In this document: positions 16,624 through 64,000 of the stretch, piece after piece
How positions within the stretch are numbered: position 1 is the stretch's first letter
Layout of the letters: the number at the start of each line of letters is the position of its first letter
Source of the DNA: Clostridium sp. Marseille-Q2269
Lineage (GTDB): Bacteria; Bacillota; Clostridia; Clostridiales; Clostridiaceae
NCBI RefSeq assembly: GCF_943736985.1
Contig: NZ_CALSFS010000006.1
Span: 62,001 to 126,000, forward strand
Direction of reading: 5' to 3'
Length of the DNA stretch: 64,000 nt
The notes under the pieces: model-generated
Database searches by the model: none
Told to the model about the DNA's origin: nothing
Seen by the model: the letters and a program-made list of their open reading frames with translations, nothing else
Translations under genes and position numbers: made by a program

Positions 16624-16694
16624 AATTATGTAACATTAAATACTTTAAATTTATATATAAGTTTATTAAAAATTATTTATTATGCTTTAATAGC

Positions 16695-16753
16695 TTGTGT
16701 AGCATATAGTAGATGCTAAATTTTTTACATCTATTATATGCTGCACAATTTTT
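16695..16753 (+). terminator. Long-stem terminator after the symporter gene
   Basis: The 21-base arm TTGTGTAGCATATAGTAGATG (16695-16715) pairs with CATCTATTATATGCTGCACAA (16728-16748), with few mismatches, followed by TTTTT. Confidence 0.85.
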
Positions 16754-17631
16754 ATATAATTTAGTTTTATTAATTTAACTTTTGGTATTAGTTAATTCTT
16801 TATATTGAAATTACTTGCGTTAAAGCTATGGAATCTTCAGACATAAAATATTAGTATAATATTTTTTATGTTTAAGATTTAATTAGCACAATGAATTAAT
16901 TTATAAAAAATATGTGAAAAATGTAACAAAAAAATGTGCTTATTTACATTATAAAAAATAAATACATAAAAGTCACTTAAAAACTGTGATATACGTATGG
17001 TATTGCCATATATCTTAATGTGTAAGAGTTTATTAAAATTTAATATTATTAATAGAATCCATATTTAAAACATATATTTAAAACATAGAATTAAAGCATG
17101 TATTCAGATAGGTAATATAAAAATTTAAATTATATACTAAATAAGTATATACATATAATTAAAAATTAATTTTTATTATACTATTTGCTTATAATTTATA
17201 AAAAAGTAAGGGCTTTTTTAATATTATGATACTTATAAATATAAAAAAATGAAAGATTTTATTTTTAAAATTACAATTGTATATAAAGGGACATATAAAG
17301 GGATATATAAGCTACATAAATTGTAATTTTTAAACATATAATCGTATAAAATACTATAAAGTATGTTATAAATTAAACTTAGTATATGCCCTTGTAAATG
17401 GATTACAAAAAACTTATAATATGTATGAGTATAATTTTATTTTAATTTAAAATAAATTGTAAATTTTTGTGATGATAGTAAGTAAATTTGCACTTGCAGA
17501 TATATACAAATTCCTATAAAATAATTAGTGTGTTCTTAAAATAAAATTAATATATTAAAAATTTCTTAAAAATTTCTAGTTGCTATTAAAAAGTAATAAC
17601 AAGATTATAGGAAATTTTTTTGTGGATTGTT
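16754..17631. other. 878-base gene-free region upstream of the rnf promoter
   Basis: Very AT-rich, with no credible reading frame or RNA gene. It holds several dyads: GATATACGTATGG / CCATATATC (16988-17014); an A/T-rich stem AAATTACAATTGTAT / ACATAAATTGTAATTT (about 17268-17329); and TTGTAA-5-TTACAA (17392-17408). Some could be activator sites for the sigma-54 promoter just downstream, or a Rex-like operator; none is proven. Confidence 0.45.
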
Positions 17632-17660
17632 TTGGCATAATTATTGCTTGCAATTATTAT
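17632..17660 (+). promoter_or_regulatory. Sigma-54 (-24/-12) promoter of the rnf operon, with an overlapping sigma-A-like promoter
   Basis: TTGGCAT-AATTA-TTGCT at 17632-17648 matches the sigma-54 consensus TTGGCAC-N5-TTGCW, with exactly 12 bases between the two key G positions (17634 and 17646). Transcription would start near 17659, leaving a leader of about 154 bases. The same TTGGCA could also act as a -35 box with TATTAT 17 bases later (17655-17660), so both readings are possible. The perfect-arm dyad ATAGCT-TT-AGCTAT follows at 17664-17677. Confidence 0.65.
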
Positions 17661-17812
17661 ATAATAGCTTTAGCTATGCAAAATTGTTTATTATTTAATC
17701 TTTATTTTAAATTAATAATAAATTCACTGTTTTAAATCAATCTATATTTTAAGTAACAATATTGTGTATTTCATGACTTTTAGCATGTATGCATAAAGAT
17801 AGGAGGATTAGT

Positions 17813-19132
17813 ATGGAACTATTAACTTTTAAAAAAGGTGTACATCCACCTCATGGAAAATACCTTACAGAAAAAAAACCTATAGAAGAATATTTACCAA
17901 AGGGCGATTTAGTGTTCCCTATGTCCCAACATATAGGGGCACCTTGTAATCCTATAGTTAAAAAAGGTGACAAAGTATTAGTTGGTCAAGTTATAGGTGA
18001 AGCTACAGGTTTTGTATCAGCGCCTATCCACAGTAGTGTTTCAGGTACTGTAAAAAACCTTGCTCCAGTATTAACAGCAGCAGGAACAAAGGTAATGGCG
18101 GTTATTGTAGAAAATGATGGACAATATGAAGAAATTGAAATGCCAAAACCAAAACACTACAATGAAATGTCAAAAGAAGAAATAATTAAATTAATACAAC
18201 AAGCAGGTATTGTTGGTATGGGTGGAGCCTGTTTTCCGACTCATGTAAAACTTTCACCACCACCAGACAAAAAAATAGACTCAATTATAGTAAATGCAGC
18301 TGAATGTGAGCCATATTTAACTTGTGACCACAGACTTATGTTAGAGGAGTCAGATAAAATAGTAGAAGGCTTAAAAATCATATTAAAAATATTCCCAGAA
18401 GCAAAAGGCTACATAGGAATAGAAAATAATAAGCCAGATGCTATAGAAGCTATGAAAAAAGCATCTGAAGGCATAGCAAATATAGAAGTTAAAGCTCTTA
18501 AGACCAAATATCCACAAGGAGCAGAAAAACAATTAATATATGCTATAAAAGGAAGAGAAGTGCCATCAGGAAAACTTCCAGCAGATGCAGGATGTGTTGT
18601 TCAAAACACTGCAACAGTTAGAGAAATATACAATGCAGTAGTTTTGGGAAGACCTTTAGTAGAAAGAATTATAACAGTTACAGGTGAAGCTGTTAAAGAA
18701 GCTAAAAATATAAGAATAAAACTTGGAACAAACCTTAGAGAATTAGTAGAATTCTGTGGTGGATATAAAGAAGAACCAGTTAAAGTTATATCTGGTGGTC
18801 CAATGATGGGTATGACAATACCAACATTAGATATACCAACAGTGAAGGGTTCTTCAGGCTTATTAAGCTTAACTAAGGCTCAAGCGGTATTACCACATGG
18901 AGGAAGCTGTATTAGATGTGGAAGATGTGTAGAAGCATGTCCAATGAATTTGATACCATCTACATTAGATTCATTATCTAATAGAGGTGAATTAGGTAGT
19001 TTTGAAGAGTTACACGGTGTAGATTGTATAGAATGTGGATGCTGTACTTTTGTATGTCCAGCTAAACGTCATTTAATTCAATCTATAAGAACAGCTAAAC
19101 GTTCAGTTATAGCTTCAAAAAGAAAAAAATAA
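17813..19132 (+). CDS. rnfC: Rnf complex subunit RnfC (NADH-binding, Fe-S)
   Basis: 439 residues from ATG 17813, with AGGAGG six bases upstream; an in-frame ATG at 17789 lacks this. The opening TFKKGVHPPHGK is typical. The nucleotide/FMN-binding part shows GIVGMGGACFPTHVKL (about 130-145) and NAAECEPYLTCDH. Two ferredoxin-type motifs follow: CIRCGRCVEACP (about 365-376) and CIECGCCTFVCP (about 404-416). RnfC is the peripheral subunit that passes electrons to NAD+. It is the first gene of rnfCDGEAB, the ion-pumping ferredoxin:NAD+ oxidoreductase. Confidence 0.96.
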   Translation: MELLTFKKGVHPPHGKYLTEKKPIEEYLPKGDLVFPMSQHIGAPCNPIVKKGDKVLVGQVIGEATGFVSAPIHSSVSGTVKNLAPVLTAAGTKVMAVIVENDGQYEEIEMPKPKHYNEMSKEEIIKLIQQAGIVGMGGACFPTHVKLSPPPDKKIDSIIVNAAECEPYLTCDHRLMLEESDKIVEGLKIILKIFPEAKGYIGIENNKPDAIEAMKKASEGIANIEVKALKTKYPQGAEKQLIYAIKGREVPSGKLPADAGCVVQNTATVREIYNAVVLGRPLVERIITVTGEAVKEAKNIRIKLGTNLRELVEFCGGYKEEPVKVISGGPMMGMTIPTLDIPTVKGSSGLLSLTKAQAVLPHGGSCIRCGRCVEACPMNLIPSTLDSLSNRGELGSFEELHGVDCIECGCCTFVCPAKRHLIQSIRTAKRSVIASKRKK

Positions 19133-19153
19133 TTAAGTAGGGAGTGACTTTGG

Positions 19154-20086
19154 ATGTCTGAATCAATGTATACATTATCTTCATCTCCACATATTCGTTC
19201 AAAAGACTCTGTTCAGTCAATAATGAGAGATGTTATAATAGCTTTACTTCCAGCAACTGTTGCAGGAATCTATTTCTTTAAATTACATGCACTTTTAGTT
19301 ATATTAACAGCAGTTATTTCTTGTATAGCAGCAGAATATATCTGGGAAAAAGCTACAGGAAGAGATATAACTATAGGAGATTTAAGTGCAGTGGTAACAG
19401 GAATGTTACTTGCATTTAACGTGCCATCAACACTTCCATTATGGATGGTAGTTATAGGCAGCTTTTTCTCTATAATAGTTGTTAAACAATTCTTTGGAGG
19501 TATAGGTCAAAACATAGTAAATCCAGCATTAGCAGGAAGAGCATTTTTACTTGCATCTTGGCCAGTAGCTATGACTACTTGGAATGTTGATGGAGTTACT
19601 ACAGCTACACCACTTGCTATTTTAAAGAGTGGACAAGGACAAATACCAAGCATGGCATCAGCTTTTCTAGGACATATAGGAGGATGTATTGGTGAAACAT
19701 CAGCTTTAGCATTACTTATAGGTTTTGCTTATCTTTTATATAGAAGAATAATAACTTGGCATGTACCAGTTACTTATGTAGCAACTGTATTTGTACTCAC
19801 AGCAGTAATAGGAAGACATGGATTTATGTCTGGAAATGCAATATATGAAATTTTTGTAGGTGGATTAATGTTAGGAGCTATATTTATGGCAACTGATTAT
19901 ACAACTTCACCAATGACTAAAAAAGGACAGGTTATTTTCGCAATAGGGTGTGGTTTAATAACAACAATCATACGTATATTCGGAGGATATCCAGAAGGAG
20001 TTTCTTACTCAATTCTATTAATGAATTTATTTGTACCTTTAATAGATAAATTCGTAACTCCAAGAGTATTTGGGGAGGTGAAATAA
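19154..20086 (+). CDS. rnfD: Rnf complex membrane subunit RnfD (covalent flavin)
   Basis: 310 residues, GGAGTG upstream of ATG 19154. Multi-span membrane protein with NPALAGRAFLLASWP and FMATDYTTSPMTKKG, both conserved in NqrB/RnfD. The flavinylation motif is seen as VTTATPLA, with T152 as the expected FMN attachment site. The stop overlaps the rnfG start (TAATG), giving coupled translation. It forms part of the ion-translocating core. Confidence 0.95.
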   Translation: MSESMYTLSSSPHIRSKDSVQSIMRDVIIALLPATVAGIYFFKLHALLVILTAVISCIAAEYIWEKATGRDITIGDLSAVVTGMLLAFNVPSTLPLWMVVIGSFFSIIVVKQFFGGIGQNIVNPALAGRAFLLASWPVAMTTWNVDGVTTATPLAILKSGQGQIPSMASAFLGHIGGCIGETSALALLIGFAYLLYRRIITWHVPVTYVATVFVLTAVIGRHGFMSGNAIYEIFVGGLMLGAIFMATDYTTSPMTKKGQVIFAIGCGLITTIIRIFGGYPEGVSYSILLMNLFVPLIDKFVTPRVFGEVK

Positions 20087-20658
20087 TGGAAAAGAATGAG
20101 ACATTAGCATTAGGATTAAAGCTTCTTATAATAACTGCCATAGCAGGGATTATACTGGGAGGAGCTTTCGTAATAACTAAAAAACCAATAGAACAACAGG
20201 TACAAAAAACAAATAATGAAGCCATGAAAGAAATACTTCCAAAAGCAAATGCTTTTGAAAAGATGGATGGAAAATCAAGTGCTGTTGTGACAGAAGTTAA
20301 TGAAGGAAAAAAAGGCAGCGACACAGCAGGATATGCTCTAAAAGTTTTAACAAAAGGATACGGTGGACAAATAGAGATGATGGTTGGAGTTTCTAAGGAT
20401 GGTAAAGTAGAAGGAATAAAAATTCTTTCCCATTCAGAGACACCAGGACTTGGAGCTAATGCCCCACAACCAAAATTCTCAGGACAATTTAAAGGAAAAT
20501 CAATTGAAAAAGACTTAGAAGTTGTTAAGACAGCACCAGGAAAAGACAATGAAATACAAGCTATGACAGGTGCAACAATAACATCAAAAGCCGTTACAAA
20601 GGGTGTTAATGATGCTGTTGCATATTATAAAAATGAATTGAAGGGAGGACAAAAATAA
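20086..20658 (+). CDS. rnfG: Rnf complex subunit RnfG (covalent flavin)
   Basis: 190 residues. The ATG shares a base with the rnfD stop codon. One membrane anchor near the N-terminus (about 10-30), then an extracytoplasmic FMN-binding domain with the motif MTGATITSKAV; T164 is the expected FMN-linked residue. HSETPGLGANA, also family-typical, precedes it. FMN attachment needs ApbE, which is encoded just beyond the operon on the other strand. The stop overlaps the rnfE start. Confidence 0.95.
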   Translation: MEKNETLALGLKLLIITAIAGIILGGAFVITKKPIEQQVQKTNNEAMKEILPKANAFEKMDGKSSAVVTEVNEGKKGSDTAGYALKVLTKGYGGQIEMMVGVSKDGKVEGIKILSHSETPGLGANAPQPKFSGQFKGKSIEKDLEVVKTAPGKDNEIQAMTGATITSKAVTKGVNDAVAYYKNELKGGQK

Positions 20659-21257
20659 TGAGCGTTTTAGGCGAAAGATTAAAGAATGGAATTATAGACG
20701 AAAATGTTACTTTCGTCCAAGTTTTAGCAATGTGTCCTACTTTGGCAGTAACATCAGGTGCTAAAAATGGTATAGGTATGGGACTTGCATCTACAGTGGT
20801 TCTTATGGGTTCAAACTTAGTTATATCACTACTTAGAAAAGTAATACCAGACAAAATTCGTATACCATCATTTATAGTAGTAATAGCAGCCTTTGTTACA
20901 TTACTTCAATTCTTAATGCAAGGTTTCGTACCAGCCTTATATCAATCATTAGGTATATTTATACCACTTATAGTTGTTAACTGTGTTATATTAGGAAGAG
21001 CAGAAGCCTATGCATCCAAAAATGGTCCAGTAGCATCAATATTTGATGGATTAGGTCAAGGCTTAGGATTTACATTATCATTAACAGTAATAGGAATGAT
21101 AAGAGAACTGTTAGGAGCAGGCCAATTATTTGGTCACCAAATAATGCCAAGCTCATTTCAACCAGCTTTAATAATGATACTTGCGCCAGGAGCATTCTTT
21201 ACATTAGGAATATTAATGGCAATAATAAATGCTAGAAAATTAAAAAAGGCTAGATAA
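20658..21257 (+). CDS. rnfE: Rnf complex membrane subunit RnfE
   Basis: 199 residues, TAATG overlap with rnfG and GGAGG upstream. Six predicted membrane helices. Typical stretches are QVLAMCPTLAVTSGAKNG, LIVVNCVILGRAEAYASKN and DGLGQGLGFTLSL. RnfE and RnfA are homologous inner-membrane subunits of opposite topology that hold a buried iron site formed by conserved Cys residues, here seen in AMCPTLAV and VNCVILG. Confidence 0.95.
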   Translation: MSVLGERLKNGIIDENVTFVQVLAMCPTLAVTSGAKNGIGMGLASTVVLMGSNLVISLLRKVIPDKIRIPSFIVVIAAFVTLLQFLMQGFVPALYQSLGIFIPLIVVNCVILGRAEAYASKNGPVASIFDGLGQGLGFTLSLTVIGMIRELLGAGQLFGHQIMPSSFQPALIMILAPGAFFTLGILMAIINARKLKKAR

Positions 21258-21309
21258 CCAAGAGAAGGAATTTTAAAGATCCTTATAAGAAGGAAGGGTG
21301 AAAAAAAGT

Positions 21310-21888
21310 ATGAAAATATTTGGCTTGATTGTATCAGCGTTATTTGTTAATAACTTCGTTTTATCAAGATTCTTAGGAATATGTTCTTTCCTTGGTGTTT
21401 CAAAAAAAGTTGAAACTGCTACAGGAATGGGACTTGCAGTTACATTCGTTATGGGGTTAGCATCACTTATATCTTATATAGTGTATAGTGCTATACTTGT
21501 GCCTCTTAACATAACCTACCTATATACTATAGCTTTTATATTAGTTATAGCAGCATTAGTTCAATTTGTTGAAATGGTTATAAAAAAGAAAAGTCCAGGA
21601 CTTTATAAAGCTCTAGGAATATTCTTACCACTTATAACTACAAACTGTGCTATATTAGGTGCGGTTATCATAAACATGAACGACAAACTTAATTTAATAG
21701 AATCATTAGTATTCGGAATTTTTTCAGGACTTGGATATATGCTTGCAATAGTTCTTTTAGCAGGTTTAAGAGAAAGAATGGAAGCATGTGATAAAATGCC
21801 TAGATCAATGCAAGGTCTTCCAATATCATTAATAACAGCAGGACTTATGGCAATCGCATTCTTAGGTTTCCAAGGACTACTACATTAG
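21310..21888 (+). CDS. rnfA: Rnf complex membrane subunit RnfA
   Basis: 192 residues from ATG 21310, giving the usual opening MKIFGLIVSALFVNNFVL; a GTG at 21298 lies on the AGGAAGGGTG ribosome binding site itself. Six helices. Cys residues in RFLGICSFLGVSKK and LITTNCAILG match the partner motifs in RnfE. It lies 52 bases after rnfE and 13 before rnfB. Confidence 0.95.
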   Translation: MKIFGLIVSALFVNNFVLSRFLGICSFLGVSKKVETATGMGLAVTFVMGLASLISYIVYSAILVPLNITYLYTIAFILVIAALVQFVEMVIKKKSPGLYKALGIFLPLITTNCAILGAVIINMNDKLNLIESLVFGIFSGLGYMLAIVLLAGLRERMEACDKMPRSMQGLPISLITAGLMAIAFLGFQGLLH

Positions 21889-21901
21889 GAGGTGTAGATA
21901 G

Positions 21902-22735
21902 ATGAATGAATTATTATTTCCTATATTGAGCTTAGGTGGACTAGGACTTGTGTTCGGTGTTCTTTTAGGATATGCATCTAAAAAATTCGCCGTAGAAGTA
22001 GACCCTAAGGTACCATTAATAAGAGATTCTCTACCAGGAGCTAACTGTGGTGGTTGCGGATTCGCAGGATGTGATGCTTATGCACAAGCGGTAGCAGAAG
22101 GCAGCGCAGCACCAAACTGCTGTACAGTAGGTGGAGCTGCTGTAACAGAAAAAGTAGCAGAAATAATGGGAGTTTCTGTAGATGAATCAGAACCATTAAA
22201 AGCATATGTAAAATGTAATGGAACTTGTGATAAAGCTAAACAAAGAGGAGAATACTACGGAACAATGGATTGCCAACAAGCATCAGTAGTTCCAGGTGGT
22301 GCATCAAAATCTTGTCAATATGGATGTTTAGGTTTAGGAAGCTGTTCAAGAGCCTGTGCATTTGACGCTATACATGTAACAGAAGGTGGAATAGCGGAAG
22401 TAGATCCAGAAAAATGTGTAGGTTGTGGAGCCTGTGTAAAAGCCTGTCCAAGAGCAGTAATAGATTTAAGACCATTATCAGCTGTAGTTAGAGTAGCATG
22501 TAACTCTAGAGATACATTAAAAGCTGTTAAAGATATCTGCCAAGTTGGATGTATCACATGTAGATTATGTGAAAGAACTTGCCCAGTAAAAGCTATCACC
22601 ATGGAAAATAATCTACCAGTAGTAGATAAAGAAAAATGTGTAAAATGTATGGCATGTGTTAAAAAATGTCCTACAAATGCATTAATAGCTTACGGAAAAG
22701 ACGTAATAGTAAAAGAAGAAAAACCAGCAAACTAG
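21902..22735 (+). CDS. rnfB: Rnf complex ferredoxin-like subunit RnfB
   Basis: 277 residues, AGGAGGTG before ATG 21902. One N-terminal membrane helix (about 5-25), then the Fe-S domain GANCGGCGFAGCDAYA, then further cysteine sets: CQYGCLGLGSCSRACAF, CVGCGACVKACP, CRLCERTCP and CVKCMACVKKCP. The high number of clusters is typical of clostridial/acetogen RnfB, which accepts electrons from reduced ferredoxin. It is the last gene of the operon; a terminator follows. Confidence 0.95.
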   Translation: MNELLFPILSLGGLGLVFGVLLGYASKKFAVEVDPKVPLIRDSLPGANCGGCGFAGCDAYAQAVAEGSAAPNCCTVGGAAVTEKVAEIMGVSVDESEPLKAYVKCNGTCDKAKQRGEYYGTMDCQQASVVPGGASKSCQYGCLGLGSCSRACAFDAIHVTEGGIAEVDPEKCVGCGACVKACPRAVIDLRPLSAVVRVACNSRDTLKAVKDICQVGCITCRLCERTCPVKAITMENNLPVVDKEKCVKCMACVKKCPTNALIAYGKDVIVKEEKPAN

Positions 22736-22853: not shown

Positions 22854-23369
22854 TTAATTAAAGGGTTTCATATTTTTCAAGTTTTTACTTAGATATTTAG
22901 TACATAAACCTATAAAATAACCTGTTATTATGCCTGAGATCATAAGTACTGGAAGATATACATAAACTCTAAGATCTTGTACAACAAAGGCCGCTACAAA
23001 AAGCTGACCTATATTATGAAATATAGCACCACAAATACTGATGGAGCTTAAGCTTAAATGTTCTTCAAATTTATAGTAAAGTATAATCATAACAACATTG
23101 CTCAAAAAGCCACCTGCTAAACTAAACATAAAAGAAGACATGCTTCCTGCAAACATAGAACCTAGAAGCGTTCTTAAAAACATAACTAAAATAGCTTCAT
23201 ATCCACCTACCATAACTAAAGTTACTAAAGAAATAACATTTGCAAGTCCTAGCTTAATACCTGGAAAAAGTACAGGTATTTGAGATTCCATTATATATAT
23301 AATCAGGGCTATACCCACCATTAAACTTAAAAAAATCATTTTTCTAGTATTATAATTTTTATTTTTCAT
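22854..23369 (-). CDS. Gx transporter family / heptaprenyl diphosphate synthase component I-like membrane protein
   Basis: 171 residues, about five membrane helices. Recognisable stretches are FPGIKLGLANVISLVTLVMVG, FLRTLLGSMFAG and FSLAGGFLSNVVMI, the glycine-rich pattern of the Gx transporter (Hpre_diP_synt_I) family. In clostridia this gene often accompanies rnf, a NusG-domain-II protein and apbE, as here. Despite the old synthase name, it looks like a small-molecule (ECF S-component-like) transporter; its substrate is unknown. It lies 30 bases from the next gene, probably in one operon. Confidence 0.75.
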   Translation of the reverse strand: MKNKNYNTRKMIFLSLMVGIALIIYIMESQIPVLFPGIKLGLANVISLVTLVMVGGYEAILVMFLRTLLGSMFAGSMSSFMFSLAGGFLSNVVMIILYYKFEEHLSLSSISICGAIFHNIGQLFVAAFVVQDLRVYVYLPVLMISGIITGYFIGLCTKYLSKNLKNMKPFN

Positions 23370-23399
23370 ATAGATTACTCCTATAAATCATTAACAATT

Positions 23400-23792
23400 T
23401 TAATAAGAAACTCCGTCTATTTTTTTATCATTTTTTTCAATAGTAATTATAATTTTATTAGGAAGACATGCAGAGGTTTCTCCAGGATTTTTTAATATTC
23501 CTGACTTTATACAAATTTTATCAGGGCAATCCGCATCTATAAATCTAATAGAACTTTTATCTACCTCTATAATATTATAATGAGTTTCACCATTATGCTT
23601 ATAATTAATTTTTAATTGCTTTTTTTCTTTTACCTTAGACAAATCTATTCGGTGTATAACTTTACCATCTTGTTTTATTACTGCTACTGTGCTTTTAGAT
23701 TTTGAAAAGAACTTAAAAAAAACAATACTAATTATGCTTAAGGCCAGTATAACACAGATTATATATACTATAATTTTGTCACCTTTTTTCAT
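23400..23792 (-). CDS. NusG domain II-containing exported protein
   Basis: 130 residues from the ATG at 23792 (AGGTGG upstream); an extended frame to 23825 has no ribosome binding site. One N-terminal membrane helix (about 6-26), then a small beta domain with VIRFIDADCPDKICIKSG-like content (SIRFIDADCPDKICIKSG) and CLPNKIIITI, the NusG domain II (KOW-less) pattern. Two Cys of DCPDKIC could bind a cofactor or form a disulfide. It lies between the Gx transporter and apbE genes. The family is repeatedly found with Rnf and flavinylation genes, but its function is not established. Confidence 0.8.
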   Translation of the reverse strand: MKKGDKIIVYIICVILALSIISIVFFKFFSKSKSTVAVIKQDGKVIHRIDLSKVKEKKQLKINYKHNGETHYNIIEVDKSSIRFIDADCPDKICIKSGILKNPGETSACLPNKIIITIEKNDKKIDGVSY

Positions 23793-23895
23793 TAATACAC
23801 CACCTATTATTTTATAACAAAACATAAATTTATTAAGTTGAAATATTAAATTTATGTAAATTTTAATATGCTAAAAAGTAAATTATTATATTAAT

Positions 23896-24930
23896 TTATT
23901 TATCTTGTAGTTTAAAATCAGTATTAGTTAATTCAAATTTATCTTTAAGGCCAGAGGTTATATAAACCTTTTTATCATTAGTTACAAATATGGCCTCCAC
24001 ATTGGTTAAGCTTTCTATTAATTTTTTTCCATTATCTAGCCCTAAAGTATAAACACTTGTGGATAAAGCATCACCATCTATAGATTTATCAGATATTATA
24101 GAAACACTAACAAGACCTTTCTCTGCAGGATAGCCTGTCTTGGTATCAAATATATGATGATATCTTTTACCATTCTTTTCAAAAAATCTTTCGTAATTAC
24201 CAGAGGTGACAATAGATTTATCAGAAACAGATATAGCGCCTAAATAATTTCCTTTAGGATGTATTGGATTTTGTACACCTATATTCCAAGGGGTTTTATT
24301 AGGTTTATTGCCTACAACATATACATTACCACCAAGGCTTAAAAAAGCAGACTCAATATTATAGTTTATAAGTATTTTTTTTAATTCATCTGCAGTATAT
24401 CCTTTAGCAATAGCCCCCAGATCCATAGCTTGTCCTTTCCTTTTAAGCATAATAGTAGATTCCTTTTCATTTATAATAATATCCTTATAATTTATAAGTT
24501 TTAAAGATCTGTCTATTTCATCTTTAGAAGGAATCCTTGCTTTATCTGTTCCAATACTCCAAAGGGCTACTAAAGGTTCTACAGTTATATCAAAAGAGCC
24601 CTTAGTTTTTTTGCTATATATTAAGGAAGCTTTTACTACATCTAAAGTATTTTTACTTACTTTAACAGGAGCTACACCAGCATTTTTATTAATTTTACTA
24701 ACTTCACTAGTAGGTATATTAGTGGACATCTTATTTTCTATATCGGAAATCTTATCTACAGAGGCTTGCACTGCCTTATCAGCATTTTTACCATAGGCCT
24801 GAATTTTTATTATAGTACCCATAAGAAAAGTTTCTCTAGATACAGGTTCTTTTGATTTAGTATTACAACCTATAAAAATTATAGGTATGCAAATAAATAA
24901 AAAAAGTATATTTACATATTTAAATTTCAA
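23896..24930 (-). CDS. apbE: FAD:protein FMN transferase (ApbE), lipoprotein
   Basis: 344 residues. The start is the TTG at 24930 (GGAG ten bases upstream); another TTG at 24963 has no such site. A lipoprotein signal ends in IIFIGC with the lipidated Cys at residue 22. ApbE motifs present: LMGTIIKIQAYG, SLGGNVYVVG, DLGAIAKGYTADEL and the metal-binding GDALSTSVYTLG. The enzyme splits FAD and joins FMN to a Thr in exported or membrane targets. The targets are very likely RnfG T164 and RnfD T152 encoded next door. It is the first gene of the minus-strand apbE-NusGII-Gx cluster. Confidence 0.92.
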   Translation of the reverse strand: MKFKYVNILFLFICIPIIFIGCNTKSKEPVSRETFLMGTIIKIQAYGKNADKAVQASVDKISDIENKMSTNIPTSEVSKINKNAGVAPVKVSKNTLDVVKASLIYSKKTKGSFDITVEPLVALWSIGTDKARIPSKDEIDRSLKLINYKDIIINEKESTIMLKRKGQAMDLGAIAKGYTADELKKILINYNIESAFLSLGGNVYVVGNKPNKTPWNIGVQNPIHPKGNYLGAISVSDKSIVTSGNYERFFEKNGKRYHHIFDTKTGYPAEKGLVSVSIISDKSIDGDALSTSVYTLGLDNGKKLIESLTNVEAIFVTNDKKVYITSGLKDKFELTNTDFKLQDK

Positions 24931-25265
24931 AATGTATTCAACTCCAATCTTATATATGGACAATAGCTTAATCTTATTTTAATTACTAGTAAATAATAAA
25001 GGTAATGATACTCTCATTTAATTATATAGCGTATACATTCATTAGGAAAGTATTATAGAAAAAATAAAAAACTTTATCAAAGGGTAATAAAATCTATATA
25101 TAAGGTTATATTTAACATTAAATGAATAATGATGTAATTATGATATAATATGAGTATGATTGTTTAAAAGTAGATTAATAATAAAATATAAACTACATAA
25201 TTGTTTTGGAAAGTGATTATAATGTGGAAAATAACTATAATAAATATTATTTATAGAAAATATTA

Positions 25266-25361: not shown

Positions 25362-28300
25362 ATGAATAACAAAGGTAGAAAAGCACTAGCAAGTGCTACA
25401 GTTGTAGGACTATTTTTATCAACTATTGTAGCGGGAACTGTTAAAGCAGCACCAGGAGATGTTAACAGAATACAAGGAAATGACAGATATGAAACAGCTG
25501 CAAATGTAGCAAAAGCTAATTGGAAAGGTGAAGCTGACAATGTAATAATAGCTTCAGGAAATGGTTATGCAGATTCATTAAGTGCATCTGTATTAGCTAA
25601 AAAATTAAACGCACCAATAATATTAACTACAGCATCAGAATTAAATTCCAATTCTAAAAGTGCATTAGAAACATTAAAACCAAAGAATGTTTATGTTATA
25701 GGTGGAAATGCATCTGTATCACACGTAGTGAGAGATGGGCTTAAAAAACAATATAAAGTAATAGAATTAGGTGGAAAAACTAGATTTGAAACTAATATAG
25801 CTATAGCTAATCATTTAGTAGACAAGTTAGGTGTGAAAGCTGAAAATGTTATGGTTATTAATGGAAATGATGGTTTCTCAGATGCCCTATCAGTAGCACC
25901 AGTAGCAGCAGCTAAAGAACAAATTTTATTAATAATAGGAAAAGATGGATCTACAGCTGATTTAGCAGCTAACTTTATTAAAAAACATAATTCAAAAGTA
26001 ACTGTAATAGGAACAGAAGGAGTTGTTCCAACAACAGTTTATAATAAATTAGGAGCAACTGAAAGAGTTAAAGGTGGAGCAACTAGATTTGAAACTAACA
26101 TTAATATAATGAAACGCTTCAAATTAAATGCTGACAAAATATATGTAGCTAATGCAACTGGGAATGGTTATGCAGATGCTTTAGTAGCTTCAGCTATAGC
26201 TGGAAAAACTGGATCAGTACTTATATTAACTGATAGGCCAGGAACAAATGGCACTAAGAATGCTGTTAATTACATAAAAGAAAACAAAACTGATAAAACA
26301 GAAGTTCAAGCTTTAGGTGGAAACTTTGTTATACCAGAAGAAATATTTAATGAAATAAAAGATGTTATTAAACCTCATAATGAAGAAAAGCCAAATGAAT
26401 CAGAGAAAGGAGAAAAACATAACAATACAGTAGCTAAAGGCAAAATAGTAAATATACATGATGTAAAATTAAAAGAAGTTTTAAATCATGCTTTAGGGCA
26501 ATATAGAAAACCAAATGATGAAATTACAAAAGAAGAAATGGAATCTTTAAAAGAATTAAGTAGTGATTATTTATCAATTATCGATAAAACTGGTCAGGGT
26601 AGCCGTGGTATTTCTGATTTGACTGGATTAGAGTATGCTATAAATTTAGAAAAACTAGATTTAAGTGAAAATAAGATTTCAGATTTATCACCACTAAGAA
26701 ATTCAACTAAAATTAAATGGCTTGAATTAGATAGAAACTATATAACAGATTTATCTCCACTATCTAAAATGACAGCATTGGAACATTTAAATATATACAA
26801 CAATGAAGATATAGTGGATTTAAATCCAATATCAAAGCTTACAACTATTAAATGGATTGATATGCATCATTGTAGTCGAAGTGAAGCTCCACTTAATGTA
26901 GAAGTGCTTAAAAATCTTACAAATCTAGAGTATTTAAGCTTTGAGACAAATAAGATTACAGATCTAAGCTTTGCAAAAAGTCTACCTAATTTAAAAACTT
27001 TATCTTGTAATAATACTTTTGTTACAGACTTAGCACCAGTACAAGATTTAGCAATATATGCTTTTAATGACTGGTCAGGAGAAAGATTTTTTAATATGTT
27101 TGGTCAAAAATTAAACACTCTATTTAATATTAAAACAAATGCTAATGGAGGAGAATATAGATTTAAATCTCCAGTAAAAAATTATGAGCGTTATAAAGCT
27201 CATATAGAAAAAACTTTAAAAGAATCTGGAGAAGAAGCAAAGGTTCCAGCCGTAGATGCTAATAATGTAAATGTGGATTATTTACACTTTGACTTTGATC
27301 ATACTACAAATGAAGTTGTGGTTAAGGTTGATCCAAATAAAACTAACAAACCTAGAAAGTATAAAGTAGAAGTTTTACTAGAGTATGGTATGTATTCACT
27401 AAGAGAAAATTTTCAAATTGTACAAGATGCCAAAAAGTCTATTAGCAATTTAGATGAAGAGCCTATAAAAATGTCAGAAAGTACTAGGAATTTTTATTTA
27501 GACTTATTTAACAAGTATAATAAATATGATAAAAAATACACTAATGTAGTTGATGATATGGCATCTAGTTATAAAGCATTACCTAATGATCATATTTTTA
27601 CTATAGGTGATATGAAAAAATTAAAAAAATTCTATGATAGTGAGTATGCATTAACTCCAGAATTAGTTGCTCCCTTAAATTATGCTACAAATCTTGAAAA
27701 TTTTGAAGTATTGTTAGATGACAAAAATTTAGTTAGAAATGTAGAAAATTTTGATTTTCTAAAAAATTGTAAAAAACTCAAAGTTTTATACTATATGAAT
27801 AATGGATTAACCTATGCTAAAGATGAAAAATCTCAAATAAAAGATATAACTGCAATTGCATCATTAACTAATCTTCAAGATTTAAGAATAAATATGACAA
27901 CTTTAGAGGATGTTACACCTATTTCTAATCTTAAATTAAAGTATTTAGTTCTTCCAGATAATTGTATTAAAGAAGTGAATTCCACCATAGGTAAAATAAC
28001 AACACTGGAGAGATTAGATATTGAAAATAATCAAGTTTCAGATATTAGTGAATTTAAGAACTTAGTTAACTTAAGGTCATCATATTTATATAATAATAAA
28101 TTGACTGATATTGGCTCACTTTCACAACTTCATAAACTTGAGGCTCTTTTAATTAATAACAATAATATAAAAGATATAACACCATTAAAAAATTTGAGCT
28201 TAAAAAGATTGTATGCAAATGGGAATCCACTTCCTTCAAATTATATGGATATAGTTAAGAAGTTTTTAAAGGTAAATACTTTAAAAGTTGGAGATATAAG

Positions 28301-28712
28301 TATAGATGATTTTAAATGGATGAAAGCTTTTGCCTTAAGGTCTGAAGATGAACTTTCTGATTTGGATGAAAATAATGCAAGATTATATACATTCATTAAT
28401 ATGCCTATTGAAATTAAAGTCTCATCAAAATCAATAAAAGATGGTGTATTAACTATAGATAATCCTTTAACAGGATTGAATGATGAACCAGTACTTCAAG
28501 ATGAATATAATAATGAAGGCAAAATAAATAACAATATTACATTTAAATCTGATAAGATAGAAATTAAAATGGATGATCCATCTGTTGCTTCACTAGAAAT
28601 AAAATATCCAATATATACAGAGAATTCTGCAATAGTATTTGGTCATAATAATTTTCTACAATCTCCTAGTATTGAAGGAACAGTAGTTTTGAATATAAAA
28701 ATAGAAAAATAA
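25362..28712 (+). CDS. Cell-wall-anchored CWB2 plus leucine-rich-repeat surface protein
   Basis: 1116 residues, AAGGAGG before ATG. A signal peptide (1-29) ends in TVKA. Three cell-wall-binding type 2 repeats cover about 36-130, 133-230 and 233-328 (GNDRYETAANVAK, GKTRFETNIAIA, GATRFETNINIM); in C. difficile Cwp proteins three such units bind the anionic wall polymer. A charged linker (about 330-365, EEKPNESEKGEKH) leads to a cap helix and two blocks of internalin-like leucine-rich repeats, about 410-560 and 820-960 (NLEKLDLSENKISDLSPL; LEALLINNNNIKDITPL). The C-terminal 150 residues are not recognised. It is probably an S-layer-associated adhesin or binding protein. A detached Ig-like fragment lies right after the stop. 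Confidence 0.88.
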   Translation: MNNKGRKALASATVVGLFLSTIVAGTVKAAPGDVNRIQGNDRYETAANVAKANWKGEADNVIIASGNGYADSLSASVLAKKLNAPIILTTASELNSNSKSALETLKPKNVYVIGGNASVSHVVRDGLKKQYKVIELGGKTRFETNIAIANHLVDKLGVKAENVMVINGNDGFSDALSVAPVAAAKEQILLIIGKDGSTADLAANFIKKHNSKVTVIGTEGVVPTTVYNKLGATERVKGGATRFETNINIMKRFKLNADKIYVANATGNGYADALVASAIAGKTGSVLILTDRPGTNGTKNAVNYIKENKTDKTEVQALGGNFVIPEEIFNEIKDVIKPHNEEKPNESEKGEKHNNTVAKGKIVNIHDVKLKEVLNHALGQYRKPNDEITKEEMESLKELSSDYLSIIDKTGQGSRGISDLTGLEYAINLEKLDLSENKISDLSPLRNSTKIKWLELDRNYITDLSPLSKMTALEHLNIYNNEDIVDLNPISKLTTIKWIDMHHCSRSEAPLNVEVLKNLTNLEYLSFETNKITDLSFAKSLPNLKTLSCNNTFVTDLAPVQDLAIYAFNDWSGERFFNMFGQKLNTLFNIKTNANGGEYRFKSPVKNYERYKAHIEKTLKESGEEAKVPAVDANNVNVDYLHFDFDHTTNEVVVKVDPNKTNKPRKYKVEVLLEYGMYSLRENFQIVQDAKKSISNLDEEPIKMSESTRNFYLDLFNKYNKYDKKYTNVVDDMASSYKALPNDHIFTIGDMKKLKKFYDSEYALTPELVAPLNYATNLENFEVLLDDKNLVRNVENFDFLKNCKKLKVLYYMNNGLTYAKDEKSQIKDITAIASLTNLQDLRINMTTLEDVTPISNLKLKYLVLPDNCIKEVNSTIGKITTLERLDIENNQVSDISEFKNLVNLRSSYLYNNKLTDIGSLSQLHKLEALLINNNNIKDITPLKNLSLKRLYANGNPLPSNYMDIVKKFLKVNTLKVGDISIDDFKWMKAFALRSEDELSDLDENNARLYTFINMPIEIKVSSKSIKDGVLTIDNPLTGLNDEPVLQDEYNNEGKINNNITFKSDKIEIKMDDPSVASLEIKYPIYTENSAIVFGHNNFLQSPSIEGTVVLNIKIEK

Positions 28713-45694: not shown

Positions 45695-46999
45695 ATGGAG
45701 ATACTTTCTTTGGGGGAAAAGATTAAAAGAAGAAGAAAAGAATTAAATATGACTTTGAAGGATTTAGCTGGAGCTAGAATAACTCCAGGGCAAATAAGCC
45801 TTGTAGAATCAGGTAAATCAAATCCTAGTATGGACTTATTAGAATATTTAGCAAACACTTTAAATACATCTATAGAATATTTTATGGAATCTGAAGATAC
45901 TCAAGCTGAAAAAATATGCAAATATTATGAAAATATAGCAGAATCTCATATTATAAATGATAACGTAAATATAGCAGAACAATATATAGAAAAATCTCTT
46001 TATTATGCTGAAAAATATAATTTAGAATATAGAAAAGCTAGAAATCTTTATTTAAGAGGACTTATATACACACATAAAGGAGATCTGTCTGTTGCACAGC
46101 AATATCTTTTATCTGCAAATGTAATATTTATTAAAAATAATAACTATGAGGAAATAGTAAATGCTTTTGTTAATTTAGGAAAAATAACAATAATATTAAA
46201 GGCCTACCATTCTTCTTGCAGTTATTTTCAACAAGCAGAAAAGGTGTATAGCGATCATGATATAGGAAATGATGATCTTTTAGCAGAGATATATTATCAT
46301 ATAGCTTATACATATTTTAAGTTAGATAATATAAATAAAGCCATAGATTACTCTTATTTAGCAAAGGAAAAATATAGACAACTAAACAATAAAAAAGAAT
46401 ATGCTAACTCTCTTTTACTTTTATCTCAACAATATAGCGAAAAAGGTGAAATGGATAGAGCTATAAGATATTCTGAAAAGGCATTAAGTATATTTAAAGA
46501 TGTAGATGATATATTATATACTTCTAAAATAGAAAATAATTTAGGCAAGTTGTTCTATGAATTTGATAATTTAGAGGAATCCTTTGTACATTTTAATAGA
46601 GCAAAGGAAATAAGAGAGTCTAACAAAGATCCGTTAATTATAGAAACTCTTATAAATATATGTGAAAATTATATAAAACAAAAGGATATTCATAATTGTA
46701 AATTAATATTAGATGAAATAATGAATAATTTAGAAAATGGAAATGAAATAGCTTTAGTAGATTATTATTTATTAAAGCATAGAGTAGAACTTCTGCAAGG
46801 TGATTTAGAAGAAGCAGAAAGAACGCTTTTAAGGGCATTAAACTTTGTTAAAAACATGGAAAATAAAGGGAGAATAGGAGAAATATCCATAATAATAGGT
46901 AAATTCTATATAGATAATGGGAATGACAAAGAAGCAGCTAAATATCTAAATGAAGGGGTAGAAATGTTCAAGGAAGTAGGATTGTTAAAGGACATGTAA
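45695..46999 (+). CDS. XRE-family regulator with TPR domain (first of a tandem pair)
   Basis: 434 residues, GAGGAAG before ATG. The helix-turn-helix domain (about 1-65: MEILSLGEKIKRRRKELN, ITPGQISLVESGKSNPS) is followed by a long run of TPR-type helices (about 100-430, with A-x-x-Y motifs such as ADYSYLAKEKYRQL-like repeats). This is the layout of RRNPP-type peptide-sensing regulators and of stand-alone TPR repressors. The neighbouring gene is a paralogue starting MEILSVGQKIKRAR. Target genes are unknown; autoregulation is likely (see the direct repeat). Confidence 0.85.
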   Translation: MEILSLGEKIKRRRKELNMTLKDLAGARITPGQISLVESGKSNPSMDLLEYLANTLNTSIEYFMESEDTQAEKICKYYENIAESHIINDNVNIAEQYIEKSLYYAEKYNLEYRKARNLYLRGLIYTHKGDLSVAQQYLLSANVIFIKNNNYEEIVNAFVNLGKITIILKAYHSSCSYFQQAEKVYSDHDIGNDDLLAEIYYHIAYTYFKLDNINKAIDYSYLAKEKYRQLNNKKEYANSLLLLSQQYSEKGEMDRAIRYSEKALSIFKDVDDILYTSKIENNLGKLFYEFDNLEESFVHFNRAKEIRESNKDPLIIETLINICENYIKQKDIHNCKLILDEIMNNLENGNEIALVDYYLLKHRVELLQGDLEEAERTLLRALNFVKNMENKGRIGEISIIIGKFYIDNGNDKEAAKYLNEGVEMFKEVGLLKDM

Positions 47000-47030
47000 C
47001 TAGATTTATTTTGTGGATGGGTGAGATTTT

Positions 47031-48284
47031 ATGGAAATACTTTCTGTAGGGCAAAAAATAAAAAGAGCAAGGGTTTATAAAGGTTATACCTTAAAAGAAT
47101 TATGTGGGGATACTATATCTGTATCTAAAATGAGTTGTATAGAAAATGACAAGATAAGACCAGATAGTGAAATATTAAAAATTATATCAGAAAAATTAGA
47201 AATAGATATTAAATACCTAAAAGCTGGAGTAAAAGAGCAACTTTTAGATAATATTGACAAACTTAAGGATAGTAAAAATCCATCAGAATATGAGAAAACT
47301 TTAGAGTATAATTTAAAGTATGCAGAGGAATACAAATACTATCATATAGCGTTTTATATAATACATATGTTATTTAATCATTATTTAGAAAATAGTGAAA
47401 TAGAAAAACTACAGCTTATAATATCTAAGTATTATGATTACTGGCTAAAATCTGGTATAGATGAAAATAAAATAATTTATTATATGGATATTGCTAAGTT
47501 TTTCTTTGAAACTAATGAGTACATAGAAGCAGCTAGTTATTATAGGAGTATTAGAAAAATTGCGCACGAAAAGGATAACTATATTTTATTATCTGAAGCT
47601 ACATATGATGAAGCGGCATGTTATATAAGATTAAAAGAATTTGAGAAAGCTTATGAAATAGCAGTTAACCTTATAGACTTAATAGATTTCTTAGATAGTA
47701 ATATTAAAAAGGCAGAAGTTTATAAGATATTGGCTATATTATCTTTAAGATTGGATAGAAATAAATTTGAAAACTATGAAGAAAAGTCATATATGTTATA
47801 TGGGAATGATTTGATTTATAAGGCAGATGCTACTTTTAAATATGCTACAGCTATGTTTGATATAGGGGAGAAGGATAAAGCAACAAGTTATATAAATAAA
47901 GCTTTAGATTCATATCCTAAAAATAATACAAGACATTTTGTATCTTTTATGCTAGATATTATGAAAGTATTATTAAAAAATGATGTTCTATATAGAGCTC
48001 AAGAAATATCAGATGAAATATTAAATTATGCTATAAAAATAAATAATATAAGATTCATAGAAAAAGCTTATTATTATAAGGCTATAATTTTAGAAAAACA
48101 AGGTAGTTTAGATACTGCTGAAATGTATATGAATCTTTCTTTAGACTCCATATTAAAATTTGGTACAAAACAAGAAATATATGAAAGATATATGAAAATG
48201 GGAAATATGTATCATAAAATGGATCAAATAGGAGAGTCTATAAAATATTTTAATTTAGCAATCAAGCTTTCGAAAAAACTTTAG
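47031..48284 (+). CDS. XRE-family regulator with TPR domain (second of the tandem pair)
   Basis: 417 residues, GGGTGAGA before ATG, 31 bases after the first regulator. HTH (about 1-62: GQKIKRARVYKGYTLKEL, TISVSKMSCIENDK) and TPR helices (about 75-415, ending YMKMGNMYHKMDQIGESIKYF). It shares domain order with its neighbour but is clearly diverged, so it is an old duplication. The HTH carries SVSKMSCIE where most XRE proteins have a Gln at the recognition position. No ligand is known; short peptide-like frames occur downstream. Confidence 0.85.
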   Translation: MEILSVGQKIKRARVYKGYTLKELCGDTISVSKMSCIENDKIRPDSEILKIISEKLEIDIKYLKAGVKEQLLDNIDKLKDSKNPSEYEKTLEYNLKYAEEYKYYHIAFYIIHMLFNHYLENSEIEKLQLIISKYYDYWLKSGIDENKIIYYMDIAKFFFETNEYIEAASYYRSIRKIAHEKDNYILLSEATYDEAACYIRLKEFEKAYEIAVNLIDLIDFLDSNIKKAEVYKILAILSLRLDRNKFENYEEKSYMLYGNDLIYKADATFKYATAMFDIGEKDKATSYINKALDSYPKNNTRHFVSFMLDIMKVLLKNDVLYRAQEISDEILNYAIKINNIRFIEKAYYYKAIILEKQGSLDTAEMYMNLSLDSILKFGTKQEIYERYMKMGNMYHKMDQIGESIKYFNLAIKLSKKL

Positions 48285-59559: not shown

Positions 59560-61081
<1,522 letters not shown>

Positions 61082-61213
61082 TAGAAAGAAGAAAATTCTT
61101 TCTAAAAGGCTGAATTCTCTGTTTAATTTTGAGAGACCAATATCTTTTATATAATTAAAACAAGTTAAGATTAATTTATCTTAACTATTAGTTATGAAAT
61201 ATAACTTAAACGT

Positions 61214-61289
61214 GGGGGTATAGCTCAGTTGGGAGAGCACCTGCCTTGCAAGCAGGGGGTCAGGAGTTCGAATCTCCTTATCTCCACCA
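61214..61289 (+). tRNA. tRNA-Ala (anticodon TGC)
   Basis: 76 bases including CCA. Cloverleaf complete: acceptor GGGGGTA/TATCTCC, D arm with AGCTCAGTTGGGAGAGC, anticodon loop CTTGCAA, T arm GGAGTTCGAATCTCC. It lies in the 16S-23S spacer. Confidence 0.97.
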
Positions 61290-61294
61290 TTTGA

Positions 61295-61371
<77 letters not shown>

Positions 61372-61499
61372 TGTTCTTTGAAAATTGCACAGTGAATAAA
61401 GTAAAGGTATAAAATCCTTTGTAATTAAAATGAAACTCACTCAGTAATGCTGAGGAGTACAGAATTCTAATAAATCTAAGATTTAAAGAATTCTTAATA

Positions 61500-64000
<2,501 letters not shown>

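Follow-up and report, generated by a model that had tools for sequence, protein, structure and literature searches.

In many anaerobes, Rnf is a main pump for energy conservation, and to our knowledge little has been learned of how rnf transcription is controlled in clostridia. An rnf operon under sigma-54 is described for Rhodobacter capsulatus, where rnfABCDGEH is controlled by NifA and RpoN, and for other diazotrophs NifA sites ahead of rnf have been predicted (PMC6925177, PMC4999443). The locus analysed here resembles those systems in that an rnf operon lies behind a sigma-54 promoter sequence (accompanied there by activator sites). However, rnf of the diazotrophs feeds electrons to nitrogenase and its activator is NifA, whereas the present window (the whole 64-kb stretch of DNA that was analysed) is from a clostridium and has the operon order rnfCDGEAB. 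No nitrogenase gene was noticed when the window was inspected by eye.

Clostridium ljungdahlii shares the order rnfCDGEAB. Its rnf operon has one major start upstream of rnfC, is transcribed to an extent that varies with the growth condition and is also controlled at the level of translation (PMC6203783), and RseC is needed for its activation during autotrophy (PMC9124969). It differs from the present locus in this RseC and translational control, and a sigma-54 promoter is not mentioned in the parts of these two papers drawn on here. In A. woodii, rnf transcription is increased on H2+CO2 (PMC8407422). In C. difficile, rnf and prd increase together under low iron (PMC6311696), and prd is a SigL/PrdR target (PMC7438776); we counted this observation for the sigma-54 reading of the present locus. 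The C. difficile Rnf proteins are also higher in aggregate biofilms and filtrates than in colony biofilms, and SigL is induced in the aggregates (PMC8225356). The observations in PMC6311696 and PMC8225356, as far as the parts drawn on go, do not show direct SigL control of rnf. The word "rnf" is absent from the main texts (supplements aside) of five papers that deal with sigma-54 or sigma factors, four of which concern clostridia (PMC6615313, PMC7438776, PMC9130780, PMC12069270, PMC12316311), and we found no sigma-54-dependent clostridial rnf operon in the parts of the main-text literature examined; Table S3 of PMC6615313, which gives regulon members, lies outside this scope, and an rnf target could be predicted there.

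The window, a piece of clostridial chromosome, has a G+C content of 28.5% and carries the rnf operon at 17813–22735; all six subunits score above their NCBIfam cut-offs, as follows.

16624–17812, + strand: intergenic region of 1.19 kb, 17.5% G+C, between a sodium:solute symporter gene and rnfC
17813–19132, + strand: rnfC (TIGR01945, 574 bits, cut-off 246)
19154–20086, + strand: rnfD (TIGR01946, 370 bits, cut-off 207)
20086–20658, + strand: rnfG (TIGR01947, 143 bits, cut-off 102)
20658–21257, + strand: rnfE (TIGR01948, 271 bits, cut-off 213)
21298–21888, + strand: rnfA (TIGR01943, 267 bits, cut-off 229)
21902–22735, + strand: rnfB (TIGR01944, 122 bits, cut-off 69)

Within the intergenic region we detected no complete ORF longer than 51 amino acids (the start of rnfC aside), no Rfam family and no terminator-like site. 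A tandem ATATAAAGGGAC/T pair at 17281–17304 (+ strand) lies there between 16-nt inverted arms (17263–17278 and 17319–17334). Convergent to rnf, on the − strand at 22854–24963, are a Gx-transporter-like gene, a NusG-domain-II-like gene and apbE; the first two were named by eye and have no NCBIfam match. Elsewhere in the window, the + strand encodes a large protein of the cell surface that carries both cell-wall-binding CWB2 repeats and leucine-rich repeats (25362–28712), two adjacent helix-turn-helix/TPR regulators of the same build, for which peptide sensing would be a guess (45695–48284), and an rRNA operon that has two tRNA genes in its 16S–23S spacer and is cut by the end of the window (59561–64000).

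A preliminary description of this DNA had proposed that rnf lies behind a sigma-54 promoter. The corresponding features are the following.

17632–17638, + strand: −24 element TTGGCAT, identical to the consensus used in the Clostridiales
17644–17648, + strand: −12 element TTGCT, in a GG-to-GC register of 12 nt
17658–17660, + strand: expected transcription start, placed by promoter geometry
17659–17812, + strand: expected rnf leader of about 155 nt, with an unremarkable fold (z = 0.41)

Transcription from a sigma-54 promoter is expected to start about 12 nt past the GC of the −12 element. No Rfam element was found in the leader. The promoter sequence, TTGGCATAATTATTGCT, occupies 17632–17648 of the + strand, 181 nt 5′ of the rnfC start codon. 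Five bases separate TTGGCAT from TTGCT, and the GG (17634–17635) and GC (17646–17647) dinucleotides start 12 nt apart, which is the canonical sigma-54 register. When TTGGCATAATTATTGCT was compared with TTGGCATNNNNNTTGCT, the consensus of Clostridiales sigma-54 promoters (PMC6615313), all 12 fixed bases agreed. The −24 and −12 elements are thus present where they had been proposed, and the match is stronger than was claimed. The mismatch that had been assigned to the sixth base of the −24 box holds against the proteobacterial TGGCAC; since every one of the 12 Clostridiales bases is matched, it exists only in relation to that proteobacterial form and disappears with the consensus of the Clostridiales.

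The sequence is the sole perfect match to TTGGCATNNNNNTTGCT in the 64-kb window, and a perfect match arose in one of 100 dinucleotide shuffles of the window (0.01 expected). We also scored the window with a weight matrix built from 30 C. difficile SigL promoters (Table 4 of PMC7438776). The rnf site reached 24.96 bits, higher than 23 of the 30 C. difficile promoters under leave-one-out scoring; the second-best score in the window was 14.8 bits, and the top score in 100 simulated 64-kb windows (first-order model) was 19.9 bits. A looser proteobacterial pattern with up to two mismatches was not enriched in the window (19 observed, 14.6 expected). The site therefore shares consensus, register and score range with the SigL promoters of C. 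difficile 630 (PMC7438776), and its consensus and register are identical to those of the Clostridiales sigma-54 regulons (PMC6615313), but the target, rnf, differs; this is a well-known kind of promoter with an unusual target. In PMC6615313, gel shifts on six promoter fragments were carried out with the SigL protein of C. beijerinckii. Its placement is that of a promoter, intergenic and on the same strand as the downstream gene. The distance to the next ORF start is 157 nt as measured by script (181 nt to the rnfC codon), a gap that exceeds those of 20 of the 23 placed sites in relatives, in a comparison in which 28 of 30 loci were classified. Taken as sequence, the site is probably a real, functional sigma-54 (RpoN/SigL) −24/−12 promoter that drives rnfCDGEAB.

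How far a perfect match can be trusted was assessed in 206 genomes from the family of the nearest named relative, of which 171 have a sigma-54 DNA-binding domain over the cut-off and are referred to as sigma-54-positive; the other 35, taken as sigma-54-negative, may include incomplete genomes, and in two of them (G120 and G121) a match falls short of the cut-off. With genome sizes rounded to 0.1 Mb, the sigma-54-positive genomes contained 1154 perfect matches in 694.9 Mb (1.66 per Mb), whereas the sigma-54-negative genomes contained 21 in 96.4 Mb (0.22 per Mb); the reversed pattern was matched 11 times in total over the 206 genomes. Placement differed likewise. A site was called promoter-like when it was intergenic and lay 17–400 nt before an ORF on the same strand. 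This was true of 47 of the 59 sites examined from sigma-54-positive genomes, with six inside ORFs (41 of 52 when only sites with a checked genome label are counted), but of only one of the 21 sites from sigma-54-negative genomes, 18 of which lay inside ORFs. The 59 sites comprise 29 loci of the family scan and 30 of 35 sites from five relatives; one locus (L141) was moved to the sigma-54-negative group because its genome is sigma-54-negative, and seven (L159–L165) were taken as sigma-54-positive with no check of the individual genome. These counts show how reliable a perfect −24/−12 match is in this family. Because match density and promoter-like placement track the presence of sigma-54, the organism itself likely encodes this factor.

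The same counts bear on the possibility that the resemblance is accidental, with rnf driven by an ordinary sigma-A promoter and the −24/−12 match meaningless. One promoter-like site among 21 in the 96.4 Mb of sigma-54-negative DNA corresponds to about 0.01 chance sites per Mb, and hence to under 0.001 such sites in 64 kb. Although the site is missing in every relative examined, and neither an activator gene nor a convincing enhancer site was found nearby (see below), we consider a chance match very improbable.

The preliminary description had also allowed for dual control, from an overlapping sigma-A promoter whose −10 region would be the following.

17655–17660, + strand: TATTAT, a possible sigma-A −10 that would pair with TTGGCA (17632–17637) over a 17-nt spacer; not above chance

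Here TTGGCA would double as a sigma-A −35 and provide basal rnf expression, to which sigma-54 control is added, with the two holoenzymes competing for one site. The pair agrees with the sigma-A consensus at 10 of 12 positions, has the ideal 17-nt spacer and scores higher as a sigma-A promoter than any other pair within 400 nt upstream of rnfC, and expression of the Rnf genes of Sporomusa sphaeroides in all four conditions tested (PMC12456013) would be in keeping with a basal promoter. However, sigma-70-like pairs occur between 16500 and 18000 at the frequency expected by chance (17 found, 17.5 expected), and a −10-like hexamer (at least five of six bases) is present at that spacing at 12 of 58 perfect sites of relatives, compared with 15% of positions in the intergenic region before rnfC. 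The TTGGCA-17-TATTAT arrangement is therefore in the sequence as had been described, but at chance level; dual control is possible and not indicated, and we regard it as unlikely.

A sigma-54 promoter requires an activator, and the earlier statement that the window has no activator gene held up when four activator domains of relatives were used in tblastn searches. Only three hits were obtained, and all of them fell on a single Walker-type motif in a gene judged by eye to be FtsH-like (E values of 0.011 or worse). Applied to 30 loci that surround sigma-54 sites of relatives, this search did reveal an activator in 17. Of the 35 perfect sites in five relatives, 26 have an activator domain no more than 3 kb away; for this reason the window promoter would belong to a minority type whose activator acts from a distance. 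The C. difficile SigL sites, too, mostly adjoin an activator gene (23 of 30; PMC7438776), unlike the window site, and a survey of the Clostridiales counted 38 of 263 activators that are not clustered with their targets (PMC6615313).

The DNA upstream of the promoter was searched for a site at which such an activator might bind. No TGT-N10-12-ACA enhancer was found 100–250 nt upstream, where a single TGT-N9-ACA occurs at 239 nt; a search for inverted repeats upstream of the site gave nothing above noise, and a comparison with the upstream DNA of 30 sigma-54 promoters of relatives revealed no likeness beyond that of shuffled sequences. One element was first spotted by eye.

17392–17408, + strand: palindrome TTGTAA-N5-TTACAA, about 230 nt before the −24 element

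This may be an activator site or, with three mismatches, a Rex-like site, but as either it is a weak candidate, and by our own estimate of the chance expectation it is not significant in DNA so rich in A+T. Rex-like (17392–17409) and CodY-like (17559–17574) places, each with three mismatches to the consensus, were noted in the rnf upstream region; the window as a whole contains both patterns at chance frequency (26 against 28.3 expected and 25 against 24.3 expected, respectively), and both were rejected as control sites.

The lack of an activator in the window would also fit a promoter that is a relic or was borrowed, that is, a real sigma-54 site moved beside rnf by rearrangement, the activator having been lost or being inactive here. 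In favour of this, the intergenic region is long (1.19 kb) and empty, and gene order around rnf varies among the relatives (25 loci): relatives of the three genes that converge on rnf in the window are convergent downstream of rnf in seven loci (apbE missing in two), lie directly 5′ of rnfC on the same strand in five and were not found in the remaining 13 stretches. Yet the arrangement downstream of rnf in the window is common to those seven loci, and decay would not leave a perfect 12/12 site, so that this history appears to us quite improbable.

The relatives available for comparison are rather distant. The best 16S match in the family set was G190, at 95%, followed by G176 and G177 at 94%, in a comparison in which many genomes yielded only a 16S fragment. 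RnfC was found in 101 of the 206 family genomes (E 1e-120); G190 encodes sigma-54 and has no RnfC match at that threshold. The nearest RnfC is that of G104, at 77–78% identity, and the nearest among the 80 named loci listed is that of Clostridium thermopalmarium (77%). When the six Rnf proteins of 25 loci were concatenated and placed in a tree together with those of the window, the window was sister to G104 (support 0.993). G104 has two rnf operons in tandem (L168), whose RnfC proteins are 49% and 77% identical to that of the window.

The site was absent from all 189 other rnfC upstream sequences scanned, that of the sister lineage among them. This number is the sum of two sets, of 60 and 139, less 10 named loci present in both, and at least five of the 189 are second copies of one genome's locus; the upstream sequences extended to at most 700 nt, some being shorter, and L276 begins within rnfC. 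The first set, from 50 family genomes and 10 named loci, includes all seven loci in which the genes downstream of rnf are arranged as in the window. It contained no site with GG/GC spacing and two or fewer mismatches (L092 and L033 have one with three), and the highest matrix score outside the window was 9.5 bits. In the second set, from 60 family loci and 79 of the 80 named loci listed (one was too short), the top score was 12.8 bits, below the lowest known SigL site at 13.6 bits. That score belongs to a weaker site, TTGGCTAG-NN-TTTTGCT, located at −91 nt before rnfC in G025 (L219) and, with 11.1 bits, at −76 nt in G016 (L220). The pattern occurs once in each of these two genomes and not at all in G054, and the L219 and L220 copies align. 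It has two mismatches to the consensus and, as the top of 139 scanned, is at chance level; we retain it only as a possible weak sigma-54 site in another lineage.

The expectation that the motif would recur before rnfC in close relatives was thus not borne out, and it is not a conserved element of clostridial rnf control. Because the relatives are distant (77–78% for RnfC, 95% for 16S), its absence from them excludes an ancient general feature and leaves a lineage-specific one, and because it is missing from the 189 other upstream sequences we take the site, on sequence comparison, to be specific to this lineage. As the nearest relative has 77–78% RnfC identity, the simplest reading is that this lineage acquired the site. 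We also compared a 22-kb stretch of the window with plasmid records. None of the 541 matching records covered most of the stretch, the best 20 matches listed fall on rRNA genes, and the rnf part gave three distant matches.

The sister genome G104, one of the 171 with sigma-54 over the cut-off, has 13 activator domains and nine perfect sites, eight of which were fetched as loci, six with a downstream ORF. These ORFs resemble butyrate kinase, diaminopropionate ammonia-lyase, methionine gamma-lyase, a PTS-enzyme-I-like protein, aldehyde ferredoxin oxidoreductase and iron-containing alcohol dehydrogenase. A ferredoxin-oxidising pump would fit a sigma-54 regulon of the G104 type. The exact 17-mer TTGGCATAATTATTGCT recurs in G190 (L192), 63 nt before a PTS EIIA gene, and the same consensus, even as an identical 17-mer, thus serves other genes too.

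If the sigma-54 promoter functions as we envisage, RNA polymerase with sigma-54 would bind 17632–17648 as a closed complex and wait there until an enhancer-binding activator that is bound upstream, and whose gene lies elsewhere in the genome, hydrolyses ATP and opens the complex. Transcription of rnf would then start near 17659 and reach rnfC after a leader of about 155 nt, and Rnf output would be tied to whatever signal the activator senses. A link of this putative activator to Stickland metabolism, as suggested in the preliminary description, is plausible. We further propose, tentatively and as something nearly but not quite probable, that in this lineage the sigma-54 network of ferredoxin-producing amino-acid and alcohol fermentation has taken over rnf, with the main chemiosmotic pump silent until a substrate-sensing activator responds. 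Were this the case, it would represent sigma-54 control of rnf outside nitrogen fixation. Because a switch of the sigma-54 type works only with a dedicated activator, the Rnf pump of this organism may be conditional and turned on only under certain feeding conditions. An activator-dependent promoter would make this pump conditional, and this species would then be one that allows a direct test of how rnf is coupled to fermentation.
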